Below are positions 53,629 to 64,000 of a stretch of DNA of 64,000 nt, piece by piece. The first letter of the stretch is position 1. Every line of letters starts with the position of its first letter. The position numbers were made by a program, and so were the translations under genes. Source of the stretch: Colwellia sp. PAMC 20917. GTDB taxonomy: Bacteria; Pseudomonadota; Gammaproteobacteria; Enterobacterales; Alteromonadaceae. The notes below the pieces were generated by a model. It did no database searches. It worked only from the letters and a program-made list of their open reading frames with translations, and was not told the DNA's origin. The DNA lies in assembly GCF_001767295.1 (NCBI RefSeq), contig NZ_CP014944.1, positions 2,108,001-2,172,000 of the forward strand, written 5' to 3'.

Positions 53629-54405
53629 CTAATTAGTACCGAGATAATCAATGTTATCTTTTTTTAGTAAGGCTAATAAATATTTAACCGGAATCGCGTA
53701 TGTTATGCCACTAGGATTAGTAATAACCGCTTCCTTTGACTCCTGCACAAAAACCTTATTAATAATACCAATCACTTCTCCTGAATCAACATCATATAAA
53801 GCACTGCCACTATTGCCAGGGTAAGCGGTAGCATCAAGTTGATAAACTAAATAAGGATTACGTAACATTTTCAACATTTTAATACTAATTTGCTGAGCAT
53901 TATCCACCGGGATTATCGTTGGTGTAATACTGGCAATAATACCGCGGTGGGTCACTGGGTATAGGCCTAAAACAGCGCCAATAGGAAAGCCCGTAAAAGC
54001 AACATAGCTGCCCTCTCGACTAAACGCTTTATTTGCAAGTTGCATCGCAGGCAGTGGCGCGCCATGGATTTTTAGTACGGCGATATCGTGCAACTGCGAA
54101 CTAGCGACAATATCAGCGGTTCGCACTTTCGCCGCTTTCCCAGAGCCAGTAAACACCGCCATTTGTTGAAGAATATTTGCATCAAGCTCTTTGGGTAAAA
54201 CGTGAAAGTTGGTGACCACATAGCGGCCATTACCGATAACAAAGCCACTTCCGTTCAAACTATTTTGCTGGCGCCCCGATGGCGTATGAACACCAATACC
54301 CACTACTGACGGTTTGATTTTTTCAACGGTATCTGCTAAATCGGCCAGTACTGAGCTGGTATAAAAAATTAAATAAACACTTAATATTATTTTCAAATAA
54401 CGCAT
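53629..54405 (-). CDS. Exported trypsin-like serine protease
   Basis: Encodes 258 residues with a signal peptide and a trypsin-like domain with the triad H (NFHVL), D (HDIAVL) and S (YPGNSGSAL). It has no PDZ domain, unlike DegP/DegS. The ATG at 54405 has GGAGG seven bases upstream; an ATG at 54423 is in frame but lacks one. It is convergent with yibQ, six bases away. Substrate unknown. Confidence 0.88.
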   Translation of the reverse strand: MRYLKIILSVYLIFYTSSVLADLADTVEKIKPSVVGIGVHTPSGRQQNSLNGSGFVIGNGRYVVTNFHVLPKELDANILQQMAVFTGSGKAAKVRTADIVASSQLHDIAVLKIHGAPLPAMQLANKAFSREGSYVAFTGFPIGAVLGLYPVTHRGIIASITPTIIPVDNAQQISIKMLKMLRNPYLVYQLDATAYPGNSGSALYDVDSGEVIGIINKVFVQESKEAVITNPSGITYAIPVKYLLALLKKDNIDYLGTN

Positions 54406-54557
54406 CTTAAACCCTCCATTCATTAGAAATCTTATTTATCGTCAATAAGTTTACTGCGTTTTACTCGCAAAAACAGCTATGATTACTCATAATTAAAATA
54501 ATCATAACAATATGTTATATCCCTGTAGGCAGCTATTTCTTAAGGTCGTTCAACAGT

Positions 54558-55382
54558 ATGACAAAAAAAACAGTAGTTCCTATCTTCGCTGGCGGCGGCA
54601 CACGACTGCCTGCACACGTTGGTATCTTACATGCGTTACAAGCTTATGACATCGACTTCAATCACTTAGTAGGGGTTTCGGGTGGCAGTATTGTTAGCAG
54701 CTTATTTGCAGCTGGCTTAAGCCCTGCTGAAATTAAAGATATCGCGTTAAATACTAATTATAACAAGTTCCGAGAATTTTCATTATTAAAATTAATTCGC
54801 AACGGTGGCTTAAGTTCAGGTGACCGTTTTGAACAATGGATGGATGGCCTACTCAGTGGAAAAACATTTGCCGAGCTTGATTATAACTTACATATTGTTG
54901 CCACAGATGTCGCTAAAGGTACCCCCGTTATTTTCAACAAAGAGCTCACCCCTGATGTAAAAGTATCGCTGGCGGTAAGATTCTCGATGTCCATTCCCTT
55001 AATATTTAGTTTCAAGACTTTTGGCGAACAGGTCATGGTTGATGGCAGTATTTTATCTGAAGACGCCCTCCATCGAGACTGGGCAAAAGACGGTACACCG
55101 GTACTATGTTTTCGCCTTAAGGGTGAGCATGAAAATAATGAAGTTAATATAAAAGGTTTTTTCCCAATTTATAAGTACGTGACCCTGCTTATTCGTACCT
55201 TTATGACCACGATCTCGCGCGAATATATTAATGAAGCCTTCTGGCACAATACCGTAGTAGTTAATATTGGCAATTACTCTGCCGTTGACTTTTCCATGAC
55301 GACAGAGCAAAAACAAAGCTTATTTGATATTGGCTTTAAAACAGCAGAGGAAGTATTACCGATAAAACTGGGAAAAAAATAA
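54558..55382 (+). CDS. Patatin-like phospholipase family protein
   Basis: Encodes 274 residues: oxyanion region AGGGTRLPAHVG, nucleophile S41 in GVSGGS and the catalytic Asp in VDGS (the usual DGG/DGA reads DGS). It belongs to the RssA-type patatins, which hydrolyse acyl esters of lipids; substrate unknown. It is the first gene of a run on the plus strand that includes the PEP-CTERM-associated acyltransferase about 100 bases on. Confidence 0.88.
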   Translation: MTKKTVVPIFAGGGTRLPAHVGILHALQAYDIDFNHLVGVSGGSIVSSLFAAGLSPAEIKDIALNTNYNKFREFSLLKLIRNGGLSSGDRFEQWMDGLLSGKTFAELDYNLHIVATDVAKGTPVIFNKELTPDVKVSLAVRFSMSIPLIFSFKTFGEQVMVDGSILSEDALHRDWAKDGTPVLCFRLKGEHENNEVNIKGFFPIYKYVTLLIRTFMTTISREYINEAFWHNTVVVNIGNYSAVDFSMTTEQKQSLFDIGFKTAEEVLPIKLGKK

Positions 55383-55482: not shown

Positions 55483-56301
55483 ATGGATGAGAAGATGAGT
55501 CTAAGCAAATTAATATTAAATTCCCCTATCATTGGCGATGTCGCAAAAAAAGTGGCGTCGTTTAAGGTCAATCATGATGCTGGAAATATTTCGGAGCATT
55601 TTACCAAGTTTCTCAAGCCACAATACGCCTCGACTGACAACCTACGTAACGAAGTATTTAAAATTCGTCACAATGTTTACTGTGAAGAATTAGCCTTCGA
55701 AAATCAAAAAGACGATGGCATGGAAATGGATGATTTTGATTCTCACTCTATTTTCGCTCTAATTCAGCACAAACCAACCAATAATTACACCAGTTGCGTA
55801 CGTATAGTTCGCTCAAGTAATGAAGATGAATTGTTACCGATTGAAAAGTTTTGTTATGACGCGATTCAAAACAAAGACTACGATCCTAAAAGATTCAAAC
55901 GTGAAGAAATTGGTGAGATTTCTCGCTTGGCTGTAAAAGCTGACTTCAGACGTCGTAAATCAGATCGTTTTAAGGGTTCTGCCATTGGTGCCATTAGTGA
56001 AAGTTCATATTCTGAATCAGAACTGCGCTGCTTCCCATTTATTGCGATTGGTTTATATATGGTTGCTGGCACTTTAGCTATCGATACCGGTATAAAACAT
56101 GCTTATGTAATGATGGAGCCACGTTTAGCCCGTAGTATGAAGTTTGTTGGCATTAAATTTGTACAAATTGGTGAGCCCATTGAATATCATGGTTTACGCG
56201 CTCCTTATTATATTAATGCTGAAATATTTTTAGAAAACCTAACAAGTGGCTTTAAGAGCTTGTATAAAGAAATACAAAAAGATATCCGTAGCCAGTTTTA
56301 A
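55483..56301 (+). CDS. PEP-CTERM/exosortase system-associated acyltransferase
   Basis: Encodes 272 residues related to autoinducer synthases and N-acyl amino acid synthases. The key LuxI-fold residues are present: R62 (RHNVYCEEL), E81-D83-D86, R107, and E145 with SR147-148. The family occurs with PEP-CTERM/exosortase systems and some members acylate amino acids from acyl-ACP. The product here is unknown. A second ATG at 55495 is possible. A ThiF-like gene follows and a PEP-CTERM gene beyond it. Confidence 0.85.
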   Translation: MDEKMSLSKLILNSPIIGDVAKKVASFKVNHDAGNISEHFTKFLKPQYASTDNLRNEVFKIRHNVYCEELAFENQKDDGMEMDDFDSHSIFALIQHKPTNNYTSCVRIVRSSNEDELLPIEKFCYDAIQNKDYDPKRFKREEIGEISRLAVKADFRRRKSDRFKGSAIGAISESSYSESELRCFPFIAIGLYMVAGTLAIDTGIKHAYVMMEPRLARSMKFVGIKFVQIGEPIEYHGLRAPYYINAEIFLENLTSGFKSLYKEIQKDIRSQF

Positions 56302-56687
56302 TTAACTATTTCGAATATTCACTGTTCATAATATCATCATAGAAAATACTTGTAAAAGTAGCGAAAATAAAATTTCTTTCCAGTAAAAAACTCTACCTTC
56401 TATTCCTGCTTTTAAATCATCATTAACATCAAATTTGTCTAATGATTTAAAAAACACTTACACATATGCGTATGATTAATTTTAAAAATTTCATTAAACT
56501 TCCTGTACTTTTTACTGGATTTATTGGCTAAATATCATAATGAAGCATTAATTTATTTTTTAAAATAAAATTTAAATAATCGCACCTACATAATTTGCTT
56601 ATCAAGGTGTATATTTAAAACATAGCCTACTGGGTATAGTTTTAATCTTTCGGTTTTTCGAATAACTACAAAATAAATGGAGTGTGA
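56302..56687. other. AT-rich spacer between acyltransferase and ThiF-like gene
   Basis: About 386 bases, very AT-rich, no coding frame of note. An inverted repeat TTTAAATCAT (56411-56420) with ATGATTTAAA (56442-56451) could fold into an AT-only stem. The ThiF gene promoter should be near its right end; no convincing element was resolved. Confidence 0.5.
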
Positions 56688-57542
56688 ATGTTTAACTACG
56701 AAAAAGCCTTTTCTAGAAACATTGGTTGGGTTACAGAAGATGAACAACAAATGCTTCGCGGTAAAAAAGTTGCAATAGCTGGCGCAGGTGGTGTTGGTGG
56801 AGTGCATTTACTTACCTTAGCAAGATTAGGTGTAGCAAACTTTAACATTTCAGATTTCGATGATTTTGAAGTACATAATTTCAATCGTCAATCTGGCGCG
56901 TTTATGTCAACCCTAGGTGAACAAAAAGTTGATGTTATGGAACGAATGACTCGCGATATTAATCCTGAAGCACAAATACAATCTTTTCCGGAAGGTATAT
57001 TTGAACATAACGTCGATAAATTCCTTGAGGGTATTGACTTGTATGTTGACGCTTTAGATTTTTTTGCTTTAGAAGCTAGAAAAACCGTGTTTAAAAAGTG
57101 TTATGAAAAAAAAATCCCTGTAATTACAGCGGCACCTCTTGGAATGGGAGCTGCCTTTTTATGCTTTATGCCAGGAAAAATGACCTATGAAGAATATTTT
57201 CGTTTTGAAGATAAAAAAACTGAAGAAGACCAACTCATTCAATTTTTAATAGGTTTGTCTCCAGCTATGTTACAGCGCTCATACCTAGTAGATGAAAGCC
57301 GTGTGAGTTTTAAAGAAAAACGTGGCCCTTCTACACCTATGGCAGTTAACCTTTGTGCCGGTATAGCAGAAACTTATGCGCTTAAAATATTATTGGGTCG
57401 TGGAAAAATAATAGCAGCCCCTTACGGTTTGCATTTCGATGCTTATCGCAATAAATATAAGAAAACATGGCGGCCTCTTGGCAACGCAGGGTTAATCCCA
57501 AGAATAATGTTTAAAATAGCTAAAAGAGTTGTTGCTCAATAA
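56688..57542 (+). CDS. ThiF/E1-like adenylyltransferase
   Basis: Encodes 284 residues with the E1-like ATP fold: GAGGVGG (32-38), D56/D58, the arginine motif NFNRQ (64-68), K80 and D121. These are the residues that adenylate a C-terminal carboxylate in MoeB, ThiF and E1 enzymes. The CxxC zinc pairs of ThiF/MoeB are absent and the three cysteines (138, 159 and one near 228) do not form an obvious catalytic set. GGAG lies six bases before the ATG. No ThiS-like partner is nearby. Its link with the upstream acyltransferase and downstream PEP-CTERM protein is contextual. Confidence 0.85.
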   Translation: MFNYEKAFSRNIGWVTEDEQQMLRGKKVAIAGAGGVGGVHLLTLARLGVANFNISDFDDFEVHNFNRQSGAFMSTLGEQKVDVMERMTRDINPEAQIQSFPEGIFEHNVDKFLEGIDLYVDALDFFALEARKTVFKKCYEKKIPVITAAPLGMGAAFLCFMPGKMTYEEYFRFEDKKTEEDQLIQFLIGLSPAMLQRSYLVDESRVSFKEKRGPSTPMAVNLCAGIAETYALKILLGRGKIIAAPYGLHFDAYRNKYKKTWRPLGNAGLIPRIMFKIAKRVVAQ

Positions 57543-57927: not shown

Positions 57928-57971
57928 TATATAAATGTATTCAAATTTACAACGACTAAATGGAAACTACT

Positions 57972-59033
57972 ATGACTAACAAGTTTAACAAAATCGTATC
58001 TGCTCTTGTTTTATGTGGTGCAACGACTTTCGCTTCGGCAAGCGATATGCAAATTGACCCTACAGCTACTCCTGGTGGCACGCTAACAAGTATATTTTCA
58101 AGTATAACTGCTGATGAAATCAAGCCAGTTTCAGCATACTTTGATTTAGACAATAACGGTATTACTACTGGCGACCTAGTTTTTGATAGCGCTTTTGGTG
58201 AACAATTTGGTTCATTAAATCCTACAAATTCTGATTTAGGTTTTAATGTTGCTCCTGCAGGCTGGACACTTTTTGCTGATTATGAGTTTTATGGTGCTGC
58301 TATAGTAATCGATGGTTTGCTAGATAGCGACGGCAATGGTTATTCTGATGCTGATTTAGACGAAAATGGTGTTATTGGTAACATTCTATATGGATCGACT
58401 ACAGATCTTGATTTATGGCAAAATCAGCCTGGTAATACTGGTAACGCTGACGGTGTATTAGATACTGGCGAAGAGCTTGCTGCACAGTTTACAGGTGGTT
58501 ACATAAACGTATTTTTAAATACTCCTTATACTGCTTCTGAATCAAGTGGTGCTTTTGACGGTTACAATGGTATTGGTGCTCGTACTTTAGACGCAAATAC
58601 TCAACTTGCTATGCGTTTTAATGTAACAGGTTCATCATTAGTTGATGTATCAATTCAGATCTACTCACAATTATCAATGATAATTGATGACTTTTTATAC
58701 TCTCCAGGAGTTGGTGATGTAAAAGATTACATTGATTTAGCAGGGAATAATGCTTTCGGTACTTTTAGTAGTGAACTAAATGGTTTAAGTAATAGCCCTA
58801 CAGTTAATACAGATTATGTTATTTCAGACCTACAAAATGGTGTTATAAATAATATATTAAATACAAGCGTTGCTTACAACGCTGGTACCAATGGTAATGT
58901 GTCTGTAAAAACTAGAACAACAACTATTGCATCTGCTAACTTGTTAGTTTCTGTGCCAGAACCAGGAACTATCGCTTTATTTGGCTTAGCACTTATTGGT
59001 TTTGCTGGTTCAAGAAAACGTAAATCTAGCTAA
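57972..59033 (+). CDS. PEP-CTERM sorting domain protein with calcium-binding-like loops
   Basis: Encodes 353 residues: signal peptide (about 1-23), acidic body and a C-terminal PEP-CTERM signal (VPEPGT at 328-333, hydrophobic helix, then SRKRKSS). It should be cleaved by an exosortase and released to the surface or exopolysaccharide. Three Asp/Asn/Gly-rich stretches look like EF-hand or dockerin loops: DLDNNGITTGD (58-68), DSDGNGYSDADLDENGVIG (117-135) and NADGVLDTGEE (157-167). The ATG at 57972 has GGA upstream and is preferred over 57960. Function unknown; presumably extracellular matrix. Confidence 0.9.
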   Translation: MTNKFNKIVSALVLCGATTFASASDMQIDPTATPGGTLTSIFSSITADEIKPVSAYFDLDNNGITTGDLVFDSAFGEQFGSLNPTNSDLGFNVAPAGWTLFADYEFYGAAIVIDGLLDSDGNGYSDADLDENGVIGNILYGSTTDLDLWQNQPGNTGNADGVLDTGEELAAQFTGGYINVFLNTPYTASESSGAFDGYNGIGARTLDANTQLAMRFNVTGSSLVDVSIQIYSQLSMIIDDFLYSPGVGDVKDYIDLAGNNAFGTFSSELNGLSNSPTVNTDYVISDLQNGVINNILNTSVAYNAGTNGNVSVKTRTTTIASANLLVSVPEPGTIALFGLALIGFAGSRKRKSS

Positions 59034-59971: not shown

Positions 59972-62632
59972 TTACATAGACAAAGCTTTATTATACTTAA
60001 CCTTTATTTTCTCATCATTATTTGACAATTCAAGAGCACGTTTTAAGTAATGTAACGCTTGTTTTTTATCACCCAAGTGTATTTTTATTTCACCAATAGT
60101 ATCTAAGACCTCAGGAATATTTGGCGCAAGCTCAATAGCTTGCATCCCATATTTATTAGCGAGTGCTAAATCTCCCTCTTTTAAATATATTCCTGCTAAA
60201 TTATTCAATGCTGGAATATTTTTCGTTGATGTCTTTACAATTATTTCATAATGGGACTTAGCTAATTTTGATTTTATAGCAAGATATTGATCTGCCAACA
60301 ACACCCTGCTACGAATATCATCAGGTTTGTCGCTTAAGTGACGCTCAAGAAACTCTAAACCCAGCGACTGCTTTTTTGATACATAATATGTAAGATAAAT
60401 TAATGTTGAGTATTTAGCATTGGGGCTTGCTTTATAGCCACTTATCAACAGAGGCAAAGCTTGCGTGTATTGCTTTTGTGAAAATAATATTTGCCCTCTT
60501 ATCCCTTGTGTAAAAGGTAAGTTTAACTCCTCAGTATTTAGTGTACTTAATATGTCACTTGAGGCTAAAGGCGAGTTACTTAACATTAACAAATGTGCTT
60601 TTATAATTTTTAGTTTGTTATTTTTGACTATTTCTCTTATTGCATTATTTACAGTCTCTATTGCTCCTTCGATATCATTTTCATTTTCTTGCAAATCAAT
60701 TTTTTGAAGCCACGCAGTTAACAGCTTAGGGTTGAATTCCAACCAACGTGTATATGTCAGTAATGCTTTATCAATCTGTTTTGTTCCTTTATAACTAGCA
60801 GCAAGCATGGACCAATAATCATCTGGTAAACTCTGCACTTCATTCTCATCTATCGCGATTAACAGCTGAATAATGTTTGAGTATTTACGTTCTGATAACC
60901 AAGCACCTGCTAAAATCAATCTATACTGCATAGATTTTTTTTCTGCAAAAGCTTCTTGCAGATAGACGATAGCCTGACTTGTATCGCCTTGTGCTTTTTT
61001 AATCCGATAATTTATAACCAAAGCACCTAAATTAGTAGGCTGTTTAAGTAATATTTTTGACACAGATTTATGTGCTTCAACAAAGTTCTCACTTTTTATG
61101 TGTTCTTTCACAAAAAACATAAGTGCAGTAACATTATCAGGCTCTAAGGATAATGCTTTTGTAAAACTATTTTTAGCTTTATTAAATTCTTTTGTTTTTA
61201 AATAAATAGCCCCCTCAAGGTTATATGATAAAACATCCTCAGGGAATTCTACTTGCATGTTTTTCACCATTTTTAATGCTTTGTCAAAATTATTTGTTTC
61301 CACATATGCAGCAACTAATGATAATTTCGCCTGTAAGTGATCAGGGGATACGTCAACCGCTTTCTCAAGATCTAAAAGACCTTCCATATCTTTAAGTGAT
61401 AATTTTAAAATACCAAGTTTCATGATGTTTGATATATCGTTTAACTCGGTGCCTTCTAATTTTTTAATTACCTTTTTAGCTTTTTCATCTTTTCCTTCAC
61501 GTATCAAAGCATAAGTCGCAGCTACATAAAGTGAAGTATCGTCCTCTGATATTTTTTCAAATTGTTCAAGGTTTTCAGTAGCATCATCGTAATACCCTAG
61601 GGCTAACTCTGTCATCGTCAAGATTCTAAAAGCAGGGTGAGCTTTATCCAACTGTTCTTTGAGAGGAGAAAGATATCGGTATGATTGTTCGTATTCTTCC
61701 AATTGATAGGCGATAACACCGGTTAGTAGTTTATTCCCTGGTGTATCTAAACCATTTTGCATTGCTTTAACTAAATGTAATTTCGCATTCAATAAATCAT
61801 TTTTGGCATATCTAACAACGCCCTTGAGCTGGTTGGTAAATGCATGATTAGGTGCAACTAAAAGTACTTCGTCTAGGTGAACTTCAGCTTCATCATAATT
61901 TTCATTTTTAACATAAGAATTCGCTAACATTAACTGAATGCTTATATCGTCTGGTTGAATTTCTTGGTATCTTTTGAATGCTACAATTGCTTGCTTATAA
62001 TTTTGATCAGCAAAGGATAATTGCCCTTTTAACATCAGCCCATCAATAAAGTCTGGTGTCTCCAAAAATAATTGTTCAAGGATATTTAATGCTTCACGAT
62101 TATTTTTTTCACTGGTTGCTAAATATGCAGCACCTAATCTTCCATATGAAGAATCAGCGGATATTTCAATTGCATTATTAATAGCTTGGTATGCTAGTTC
62201 ATCTTTGTTTAATCTAAATAGAGAGAGTGCCTTATATACACCGACTAAAGCCCAATCTTCCGGTTGACTAAAAGATAGTCCTTCGGAAAACTCAAGAATT
62301 TCAGAATATTTATTCTGTATCTTATAAGCACGCAATAAAAGAATGGCTGCATCTATATTGCCTAATTCATAAGCCTTTAATAGTTCTTTTTCTGCATTTA
62401 AGCCAGAACCTGACTCTAGATATATTTTACCAAGCAATACTCTTGCATTTGAGTTATTAACATCATTTTGTATTACATTCTTTAAATTAATTATGGCTGC
62501 ATTAACATCACCATTTTTTAATGCGACAGTTGCTGAAGCTATTTGCTCTTCTGCAGTTTTATTTTCACTACAAGCACCTAATAATAAAACAGTAATTAAA
62601 ATTGAAATCGCTAAATTAGAGTTCTTTCTCAT
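59972..62632 (-). CDS. prsT: PEP-CTERM system TPR-repeat lipoprotein, PrsT-like
   Basis: Encodes 886 residues: lipoprotein signal with LLLGAC (Cys21), then about twenty TPR-like repeats over the rest. Its start (AEEQIASATVALKNGDVNAAIINLKNVIQ) matches PrsT, a TPR lipoprotein found near exosortase and PEP-CTERM genes. The role is thought to be in export or assembly of exopolysaccharide. It starts 45 bases after the preceding TPR gene, which runs off the right edge. Confidence 0.82.
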   Translation of the reverse strand: MRKNSNLAISILITVLLLGACSENKTAEEQIASATVALKNGDVNAAIINLKNVIQNDVNNSNARVLLGKIYLESGSGLNAEKELLKAYELGNIDAAILLLRAYKIQNKYSEILEFSEGLSFSQPEDWALVGVYKALSLFRLNKDELAYQAINNAIEISADSSYGRLGAAYLATSEKNNREALNILEQLFLETPDFIDGLMLKGQLSFADQNYKQAIVAFKRYQEIQPDDISIQLMLANSYVKNENYDEAEVHLDEVLLVAPNHAFTNQLKGVVRYAKNDLLNAKLHLVKAMQNGLDTPGNKLLTGVIAYQLEEYEQSYRYLSPLKEQLDKAHPAFRILTMTELALGYYDDATENLEQFEKISEDDTSLYVAATYALIREGKDEKAKKVIKKLEGTELNDISNIMKLGILKLSLKDMEGLLDLEKAVDVSPDHLQAKLSLVAAYVETNNFDKALKMVKNMQVEFPEDVLSYNLEGAIYLKTKEFNKAKNSFTKALSLEPDNVTALMFFVKEHIKSENFVEAHKSVSKILLKQPTNLGALVINYRIKKAQGDTSQAIVYLQEAFAEKKSMQYRLILAGAWLSERKYSNIIQLLIAIDENEVQSLPDDYWSMLAASYKGTKQIDKALLTYTRWLEFNPKLLTAWLQKIDLQENENDIEGAIETVNNAIREIVKNNKLKIIKAHLLMLSNSPLASSDILSTLNTEELNLPFTQGIRGQILFSQKQYTQALPLLISGYKASPNAKYSTLIYLTYYVSKKQSLGLEFLERHLSDKPDDIRSRVLLADQYLAIKSKLAKSHYEIIVKTSTKNIPALNNLAGIYLKEGDLALANKYGMQAIELAPNIPEVLDTIGEIKIHLGDKKQALHYLKRALELSNNDEKIKVKYNKALSM

Positions 62633-62677
62633 GAGATTATATGTCCTTAATTTTATTATTTATGTTAGTCACATTTT

Positions 62678-64000
62678 CTATAGTTTTGGATTGACCCGAT
62701 TAGTTAATTGCTCTTTTCTATTCATTATCTCTATGTTTTTACTTTTTATTCGTGTCAGCACCGCCATTGCTTCTTGATTTTTATCATTTGCAATGAGCAC
62801 CTCTGCATAATTCAGAGATATACTTGGATCTTTTCCTTGTGTTATATCATAGGCTTTCATAATAGCTTGCCACGCATCAATTTTACGCCCTGATTTAAGT
62901 AAAACCATTGCTCTGGTATCGATAACATTAGGATGATTAGGTGCTAACTTAATTGCTTCAGCAGAATACTTTAATGCTAGCTCTACATTATCATTTTCAA
63001 GGTTTAACCAAGCCAAATTATTGAGAACAACAATATCATCAGGTCTTTCTAACAGCATTTTTTCATAAAGGGGTATAGCCTTTTCTTGTTGTGTCTCAAG
63101 ATAATAATTAGCCAGTATAGAACGAACATTATTATTCGAGCCTTTAACTTCAAGAAAATCTTCTAAGGTGGATATCGATTCATCTGTTGAACCAGCACCT
63201 TTTTGTGCTATAGCAAGCAAAATGACATTTTTACCTGATGGGAAGCTCTCATAGAAATTTTTTAAAAGTGGAATGGCTTTTAAATAATTTTTTTCTAAAA
63301 GTAAAATTCGACCGTCAACACCTCCAACAACCTTTTCATTAATGTCGCTGTCTAAAAACTCAGGATAAAAAGATTTAGCTGACTGCAACTTACCGTTATC
63401 AAGTAATATTTGCATCTTAGCGGCTTTCAGCATCGTATTATTTTTTTGATATCCACTTAACGCTTTATCGACAAGACTCAAAGCCGACTCAACGTCTTTA
63501 TTACGCATGTATTGATCTAATACTAATATAATAGGTTCGACTGCATATGGATTTGTTTTAATCCATTTGTCGATCACAGCAGAGACGCCATTGCCTTTGT
63601 TAATATTGCGATGAGCCACAACACTTAATTGCCAAAGCTTAGCCGGAGAGCTTATTGATGCTTCAAACGAATCAAGAATACTTAACGCATCTTTATAATT
63701 ATTTTGATCGATTAACACTTGAGCATATAACAGCCCAAAAGCTAAATCATCCGTACTAGACTCAAATATGTCTTTTATTTTTGATGTAGCTAAATCCCTT
63801 CTGTTTAGGTCTGTTCTAGCAACCACATAATATAGTTCTAGCATTTTTTCATTTTCAGGAAAAACACTTAGACCCAGTTCTGACAATCGGGTTGCTTCAG
63901 CGGGTTCATTTTGTTTCAAAGCTATATTAATTAAGTTTGAAATAGCAAAATAATTTTTTGGAGATAACTCTAAGCTTTTGTTTAAACTAACTTTAGCTAA
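62678..64000 (-). CDS. TPR-repeat protein, C-terminal part (runs off the right edge)
   Basis: The frame is open to the right edge of the window: the TTG at 63919 is only an internal codon, and 27 further TPR-like codons (SLELSPKNYFAISNLI) precede it. At least 441 residues of TPR repeats are visible, close in style to the next gene. It may be a second PrsT-type protein of the PEP-CTERM system, but the N-terminus with any lipoprotein signal is outside. Both TPR genes probably form one operon. Confidence 0.8.
   Translation of the reverse strand, partial: LAKVSLNKSLELSPKNYFAISNLINIALKQNEPAEATRLSELGLSVFPENEKMLELYYVVARTDLNRRDLATSKIKDIFESSTDDLAFGLLYAQVLIDQNNYKDALSILDSFEASISSPAKLWQLSVVAHRNINKGNGVSAVIDKWIKTNPYAVEPIILVLDQYMRNKDVESALSLVDKALSGYQKNNTMLKAAKMQILLDNGKLQSAKSFYPEFLDSDINEKVVGGVDGRILLLEKNYLKAIPLLKNFYESFPSGKNVILLAIAQKGAGSTDESISTLEDFLEVKGSNNNVRSILANYYLETQQEKAIPLYEKMLLERPDDIVVLNNLAWLNLENDNVELALKYSAEAIKLAPNHPNVIDTRAMVLLKSGRKIDAWQAIMKAYDITQGKDPSISLNYAEVLIANDKNQEAMAVLTRIKSKNIEIMNRKEQLTNRVNPKL

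Follow-up and report, generated by a model that had tools for sequence, protein, structure and literature searches.

A standalone ThiF-fold protein beside a PEP-CTERM-associated acyltransferase in Colwellia is a probable N-acyl amino acid cyclase

Which reaction would an E1-like adenylating enzyme catalyze when it is encoded next to a PEP-CTERM-associated acyltransferase? The question is raised by a gene in a 64,000-nucleotide stretch of Colwellia sp. PAMC 20917 (contig NZ_CP014944.1, positions 2,108,001 to 2,172,000), which was analyzed as a whole and is referred to as the window. A first-pass annotation had proposed that the enzyme takes part in surface modification by activating either a peptide C-terminus or the carboxylate of an N-acyl amino acid that the neighboring gene product makes.

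The reading frame is intact from ATG to TAA (284 codons), and its product is a ThiF-fold protein (PF00899) in Pfam. The protein scores 423.7 bits over residues 2–282 against PRK08223 (NF006077; cut-off 266), a curated NCBIfam family that carries the name 'hypothetical protein' and of which, to our knowledge, no member has been assayed. Long models come next (NF011424, 289 bits; NF011425, 235 bits), each scoring under its own cut-off, and the ThiF, MoeB and TcdA models give 64–91 bits. The AlphaFold model has a mean pLDDT of 92.7; its best Foldseek matches are AclA (PDB code: 9EGB), ThiF and MoeB, and the top PDB match by sequence is TcdA. Entries 9EGB–9EGD are the ThiF-fold AclA of Tenacibaculum discolor, of which 9EGB was solved with substrate; a search of the open-access literature for the chemistry of AclA returned nothing.

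All the ATP and adenylation residues named in the first-pass annotation (GAGGVGG, D56/D58, NFNRQ, K80 and D121) are present. In a 94-row alignment of the family, G32, G34, G35, G37, D58, N64, N66, R67, Q68, K80, D121 and D124 are invariant, and D56 is replaced once, by Glu, in a row without the flavin oxidase of the nitroreductase superfamily (FDO) discussed below. D56 excepted, the catalytic residues are invariant alike in the FDO-less (50) and FDO-bearing (44) rows. Judged by alignment offsets, D124 rather than D121 aligns with D130 of MoeB, which we take to be the catalytic Asp of that enzyme. The window protein has both the E1/ThiF fold and the adenylation residues expected of an oxazolone synthetase. 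Its only cysteines are residues 138, 159 and 223, which form no CxxC, as the earlier observation that the zinc pairs are missing had it. One CxxC occurs in 43 of the 94 rows and two occur in none, so PRK08223 is a family without the zinc pair.

The genes around the ThiF gene are listed in Table 1, and the profile scores uphold the earlier assignment of both flanking genes, the PEP-CTERM-associated acyltransferase upstream and the PEP-CTERM substrate downstream.

Table 1. Features of the window around the ThiF-fold gene.
Feature	Position	Strand	Evidence and remarks
DegP/trypsin-like protease gene	53629-54423		Near the module in 41 of the best 80 named loci
Patatin-like phospholipase	54558..55382	+	PF01734; recurs beside the module; pathway membership uncertain
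PEP-CTERM/exosortase-associated acyltransferase (LuxI/FeeM type)	55483..56301	+	TIGR03694, 268.4 bits (cut-off 111.95); proposed N-acyl amino acid synthase
ThiF/E1-fold protein, PRK08223 family, 284 aa	56688..57542	+	NF006077, AlphaFold, Foldseek; proposed N-acyl amino acid adenylating cyclase
PEP-CTERM protein, exosortase substrate	57960..59033	+	TIGR02595, 29.5 bits (cut-off 16) at the C-terminus; PF07589
PrsT, XrtA/PEP-CTERM system TPR protein	59972..62632	-	TIGR02917, 598 bits (cut-off 312)
Second PrsT-like TPR ORF, cut by the window end	62678..63919	-	224.8 bits over part of the profile, under the cut-off of 312; 925 aa in L044

The acyltransferase is the next gene upstream of the ThiF gene, the arrangement expected of an oxazolone synthetase. 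It also exceeds the cut-offs of the Pfam models Acetyltransf_5 and FeeM, and a comparison with PDB sequences gave no confident match (best E 0.2). The gap between the two genes (56302-56687) is AT-rich and 386 bp long, which exceeds the gap at every one of the 35 loci, among the best 80 named ones, where the acyltransferase lies immediately upstream on the same strand (-71 to 380 bp). A promoter and terminator scan of the region around the gap found promoter-like sites no more than expected by chance. An exosortase gene (TIGR02602, 191 bits; under the cut-off of the XrtA model) starts 1.65 kb beyond the window end, at 2173652-2175079 of the genome. The two PrsT-like TPR genes stand in tandem (59972-63919, continuing to 15455 of L044) and encode 886 and 925 aa; among the best 80 named loci, one PrsT of more than 500 aa is found in 38, two in 2 and none in 40, and two also occur in L211. 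The patatin-like gene upstream of the acyltransferase recurs in 17 of these 80 loci, 14 of them FDO-less. The lipase might release or transfer an acyl group, and phylogeny could explain its recurrence.

The first-pass annotation had tied this ThiF clade to the acyltransferase family and to PEP-CTERM genes, and had held that a close homologue in unrelated surroundings would speak against the tie. Among 148 genomes of the order, PRK08223 exceeds its cut-off in 22, TIGR03694 is present in 34 and 45 have an exosortase. Each of these sets lies within the next larger one, so that all 22 have both partners. The hypergeometric probabilities of this nesting are 6e-18 and 4e-14, or only 1.3e-4 inside the exosortase-positive genomes, values that overstate the surprise because related genomes are not independent. 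The ThiF gene is absent from 12 of the 34 acyltransferase genomes. In a phylum sample of 398 genomes, which overlaps the order sample and holds 31 TIGR03694 matches over the cut-off (32 at the E-value used), 14 of the 16 genomes with PRK08223 over the cut-off have TIGR03694 and 15 have an exosortase. Of the exceptions, G413 has PrsT, PEP-CTERM and exosortase genes and no TIGR03694, and G462 has PRK08223 beside a FeeM-type acyltransferase and an FDO, with no exosortase. The association with acyltransferase and exosortase is therefore borne out, and the counter-case arises in a minor way, in G462 and in two sub-cut-off members from an amino-acid context.

These two (L061 9343-10281 in G103; L062 9664-10458 in G087) bring the genomes of the order with any PRK08223 match to 24. 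They encode divergent PRK08223-like ThiF proteins, 36% identical to that of the window. The gene of G103 lies near argC_other and a radical-SAM aminomutase-like gene, and that of G087 lies with PLP aminotransferase-like and DapF-like genes, as judged by eye; neither stretch holds an acyltransferase and neither genome has an exosortase match. Both proteins possibly serve a different ThiF-dependent amino-acid pathway.

The gene neighbors of the family point to its chemistry. We examined the 80 best-scoring named loci, which are no random draw and include many MAGs, with at most 6 kb of DNA on each side. ThiF is fused to an FDO in 19 and has an FDO near it in 20 (39/80 in all), and the fetched DNA of the remaining 41 contains none; the 20 include one FDO 4.4 kb off, one upstream on the other strand, four downstream on the opposite strand and one split over two frames. 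The split FDO follows the ThiF gene in a Paraglaciecola arctica MAG (L101 3382-4436), where frames of 167 and 181 aa reflect decay or a sequencing error. An acyltransferase is present in 60 of the 80 loci; the profile finds none in the other 20, some of which are explained by short fetched DNA. Even among close relatives of the window the acyltransferase is not always adjacent: two of the three nearest Colwellia loci listed (L090 and L092) have none within 6 kb and none is seen by profile at a third Colwellia locus, L097. In 20 stretches of up to 20 kb, drawn from 20 genomes among the 24 of the order that have a ThiF match, the acyltransferase is inside the stretch in 16, and a nitroreductase-superfamily gene stands right after the ThiF gene in L051 and L057 and one gene further in L056. 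Two further ThiF-FDO fusions in the order adjoin an acyltransferase (L207 and L208), and acyltransferase, ThiF and FDO occur as separate genes in L081, L082, L083 and L211. The FDO parts of six scanned FDO proteins or fusions match the C-terminal FDO part of the Rv1355c (TrzS) and PRK14851 models, under the cut-offs; the window protein itself reaches only 63 of the 476 bits that the Rv1355c model sets as its cut-off.

Acyltransferase, ThiF and FDO together are described as a biochemically proven oxazolone pathway, in which ThiF cyclizes an N-acyl amino acid with ATP (PMC10404671; PMC12856293). TyzB, a standalone ThiF homologue, carries out the ATP-dependent cyclization of N-acyl-Tyr, and TyzC the O2-dependent desaturation, according to PMC10404671. 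For TrzS, PMC12856293 describes that cyclization comes first, that the saturated cyclized intermediate accumulates under limiting O2, and that the reaction stops when a conserved Asp of the ThiF domain is changed. Since the window's ThiF family is tied to both partners of this published trio, the earlier proposal that it activates the carboxylate of a neighboring N-acyl amino acid is well supported, and the protein is probably a cyclase of the oxazolone-synthetase type that adenylates N-acyl amino acids. It would be of the OxzB/TyzB/TrzS kind, a likeness drawn from fold, context and published descriptions. The acyltransferase, judging from its family, would acylate an amino acid with a fatty chain; the ThiF-fold enzyme, judging from its fold, invariant residues and characterized relatives, would adenylate the free carboxylate at the expense of ATP; and the amide oxygen would then close on the adenylate, forming a 5(4H)-oxazolone. 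Desaturation of the amino acid falls to a flavin-dependent oxidase in the characterized pathways.

The locus departs from the known systems at this last step. No FDO is found at the window locus, either adjacent or fused. The window's genome (G000) was searched with a single FDO sequence (without a positive control) and then with an FDO profile, and the profile found nothing at E ≤ 0.001. This profile recognizes FDOs outside its own rows, with 112–430 bits in the named loci (L116, 421; L128, 429; L135, 151) and 272–384 bits on the FDOs of L207, L208 and L211. Of 31 ThiF genomes searched, 8 contain a strong FDO, which are no independent control because the profile was built from those rows. Among the remaining 23, some of them incomplete (G127, 60%; G111, 88%; G113, 88%), 21 give no match, namely G000 and 20 of the other 22, and 2 give a weak match elsewhere. 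Three ThiF-free genomes gave none. Since the profile, at its sensitivity, detects no FDO in the window's genome, the product should remain saturated, a reactive azlactone that would then be hydrolyzed or acylate a nucleophile. Given the precedent of TyzB and TrzS, the simplest reading is that the window enzyme is the cyclase of a pathway without a desaturation step, and that its product is most likely the saturated oxazolone.

Alternatively, the same cyclase may work with an oxidase supplied in trans, either an unrelated flavoprotein or a highly divergent one, to yield unsaturated oxazolones or N-acyl dehydroamino acids of the thalassotalic-acid type. Same-family relatives with an acyltransferase, ThiF and FDO agree with this, both the separate genes and the L208 fusion mentioned above, as does a ThiF-FDO fusion in an uncultured Colwellia (L097). 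Clusters of NAS, ThiF and nitroreductase have been published from Thalassotalea sp. PP2-459, which makes N-acyl dehydrotyrosines, and from Massilia kyonggiensis and Stieleria (Sauer et al., PMC12479983). In that account the role of ThiF is called enigmatic. It also finds ThiF and nitroreductase co-present or co-absent and reports no oxazolones from those producers, which speaks against the reading of the window protein as an oxazolone-type cyclase. Nitroreductase-family proteins do exist in the window's genome, so an unrelated oxidase could stand in for the FDO. However, they are ordinary, short proteins of 183–226 aa, and the profile is blank in G000 and nearly all the other ThiF genomes that have no strong FDO, which makes an oxidase in trans unlikely.

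A conserved neighbor that replaces the FDO was sought by clustering the ORFs of the best 80 named loci into groups, of which the 28 commonest were compared. The groups enriched in FDO-less loci (protease, PrsT, UDP-sugar enzymes, PEP-CTERM, an exosortase-like ORF and patatin) are mostly exosortase-island genes plus patatin and may follow phylogeny, and this candidate was rejected. A PEP-CTERM gene, as labeled by a regular expression of our own making, stands beside ThiF in 25 of 38 FDO-less loci versus 14 of 32 others, a difference that is not significant (p = 0.09) and that was obtained after 10 of the 80 loci with short flanks were dropped; well supported branches supply no more than four independent pairs.

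The cyclase gene itself is retained. The three best named relatives listed are Colwellia records with 88–92% identity, and against the three nearest Colwellia sequences the window's gene has a dN of 0.04–0.07 and a dS of 1.2–1.9, the latter near saturation. The gene is under strong purifying selection; the few amino-acid changes relative to dS indicate that selection maintains it in loci that have no oxidase nearby. On the 94-row ThiF tree, a quick one with some very long branches and 22 of its 91 inner branches starred, the FDO-less, separate and fused states are interleaved, with 19 changes when the window is counted as FDO-less and 20 when it is its own group; of these 20, starred branches force at least 7. 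The L097 fusion, whose ThiF domain is 83–84% identical to that of the window and is joined to a 380-bit FDO, shares with the window a group of 13 rows (support 94). This fused gene is followed by a 528-aa ORF (L097 8126-9712), acyl-AMP ligase-like by eye, whose group occurs in 8 of the best 80 loci; an FDO is present at 7 of these 8.

The module is a putative accessory of an exosortase/PEP-CTERM and exopolysaccharide island, with which its co-occurrence is observed; from this neighborhood a role in surface modification may be proposed. The ThiF product of FDO-less exosortase islands, a saturated azlactone or the acyl adenylate, could serve as an activated lipid donor that acylates an amine or hydroxyl on exopolysaccharide or PEP-CTERM proteins, or that builds the acceptor of the exosortase reaction. 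We consider this quite improbable; the absence of PRK08223 over its cut-off from 23 of the 45 exosortase genomes of the order counts against a core role of such chemistry. If true, it would mean that bacteria lipidate their surface by a chemistry that is new.

Activation of a protein or peptide C-terminus, the second half of the first-pass proposal, would amount to surface protein modification of a ubiquitin-like or RiPP-like type. The fold is common to E1, MccB and PaaA and a PEP-CTERM gene adjoins, but no UBL, ThiS-like protein or precursor peptide was recognized in the neighborhoods among the ORFs inspected (at least 80–100 aa), and the common partners in the best named loci are the acyltransferase and the FDO. 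No evidence for this half was found, and we regard it as highly improbable. A housekeeping sulfur-carrier adenylyltransferase, ThiF or MoeB, is hardly credible, since the PF00899 match and moderate model scores in its favor are outweighed by scores below the cut-offs (TIGR02356, 85.7 versus 275 bits; TIGR02355, 63.9 versus 377 bits), the lack of the two CxxC pairs, a patchy spread tied to exosortase genomes (22/148 over the cut-off) and a separate MoeB/ThiF-like gene in the genome (255 bits; MoeB cut-off 266) with CxxC pairs by eye. TcdA was likewise rejected (PRK15116, 64 bits, cut-off 304; another gene of the genome scores 386), and the family cut-offs, the missing CxxC pairs and the other genes available for these roles tell against the ThiF, MoeB and TcdA housekeeping functions together.

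Reading the protein as an N-acyl amino acid cyclase assigns a function that can be tested to PRK08223, a widespread curated family named 'hypothetical protein', with at least 533 confirmed stretches in one genome collection, where two patterns were used and a locus may count twice. Oxazolone-type lipids would thereby be connected with exosortase/PEP-CTERM surface islands, about whose lipid partners little is known. The reading also points to natural strains in which cyclization is apparently uncoupled from desaturation and which would reveal the purpose of the ThiF step alone. The link between NAS and PEP-CTERM/exosortase is already published (Craig et al., 2011, as cited in PMC4897644 and PMC7293339), and PMC7293339 notes that the cluster of Stieleria maiorica includes a PEP-CTERM gene. 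No publication joining ThiF or oxazolones to exosortase was found among the open-access papers listed; PMC2907700, a match in that search, is unrelated by its passages. Oxazolone chemistry is already known, and what is added here is the oxidase-free ThiF inside exosortase islands and its wide spread.

The window can be compared with several characterized systems, from shared fold to shared gene order. MccB, PaaA, AclA and TcdA have the E1 fold of the window protein and differ in substrate and genomic context. TcdA, the ct6A synthase, cyclizes a small N-carbamoyl amino acid by adenylation. OxzAB, the oxazolone synthetase of Pseudoalteromonas rubra reportedly described by de Rond, Asay and Moore in 2021, pairs an acyltransferase with a ThiF-type cyclase, as the window does. 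In contrast to OxzAB, the ThiF of the window is a separate protein without an FDO, encoded in an exosortase/PEP-CTERM island. The domains of OxzB are named in PMC12856293 as ThiF followed by FDO, the order that is also seen in the fused members of PRK08223. In TrzAS, the tryptazolone pathway, ThiF is fused to the FDO (as described in PMC12856293), whereas it stands alone in the window. TyzACB, the tyrazolone pathway, likened here by its description in PMC10404671, resembles the window in clustering a standalone ThiF homologue with an acyltransferase, and differs in its organism and in including the FDO TyzC. The thalassotalic acid, kyonggic acid and stieleriacine clusters, as described in PMC12479983 and PMC7293339, keep the nitroreductase that is absent at the window. 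By the labels of the tree, Thalassotalea belongs to the Colwelliaceae, as do the nearest named relatives of the window.
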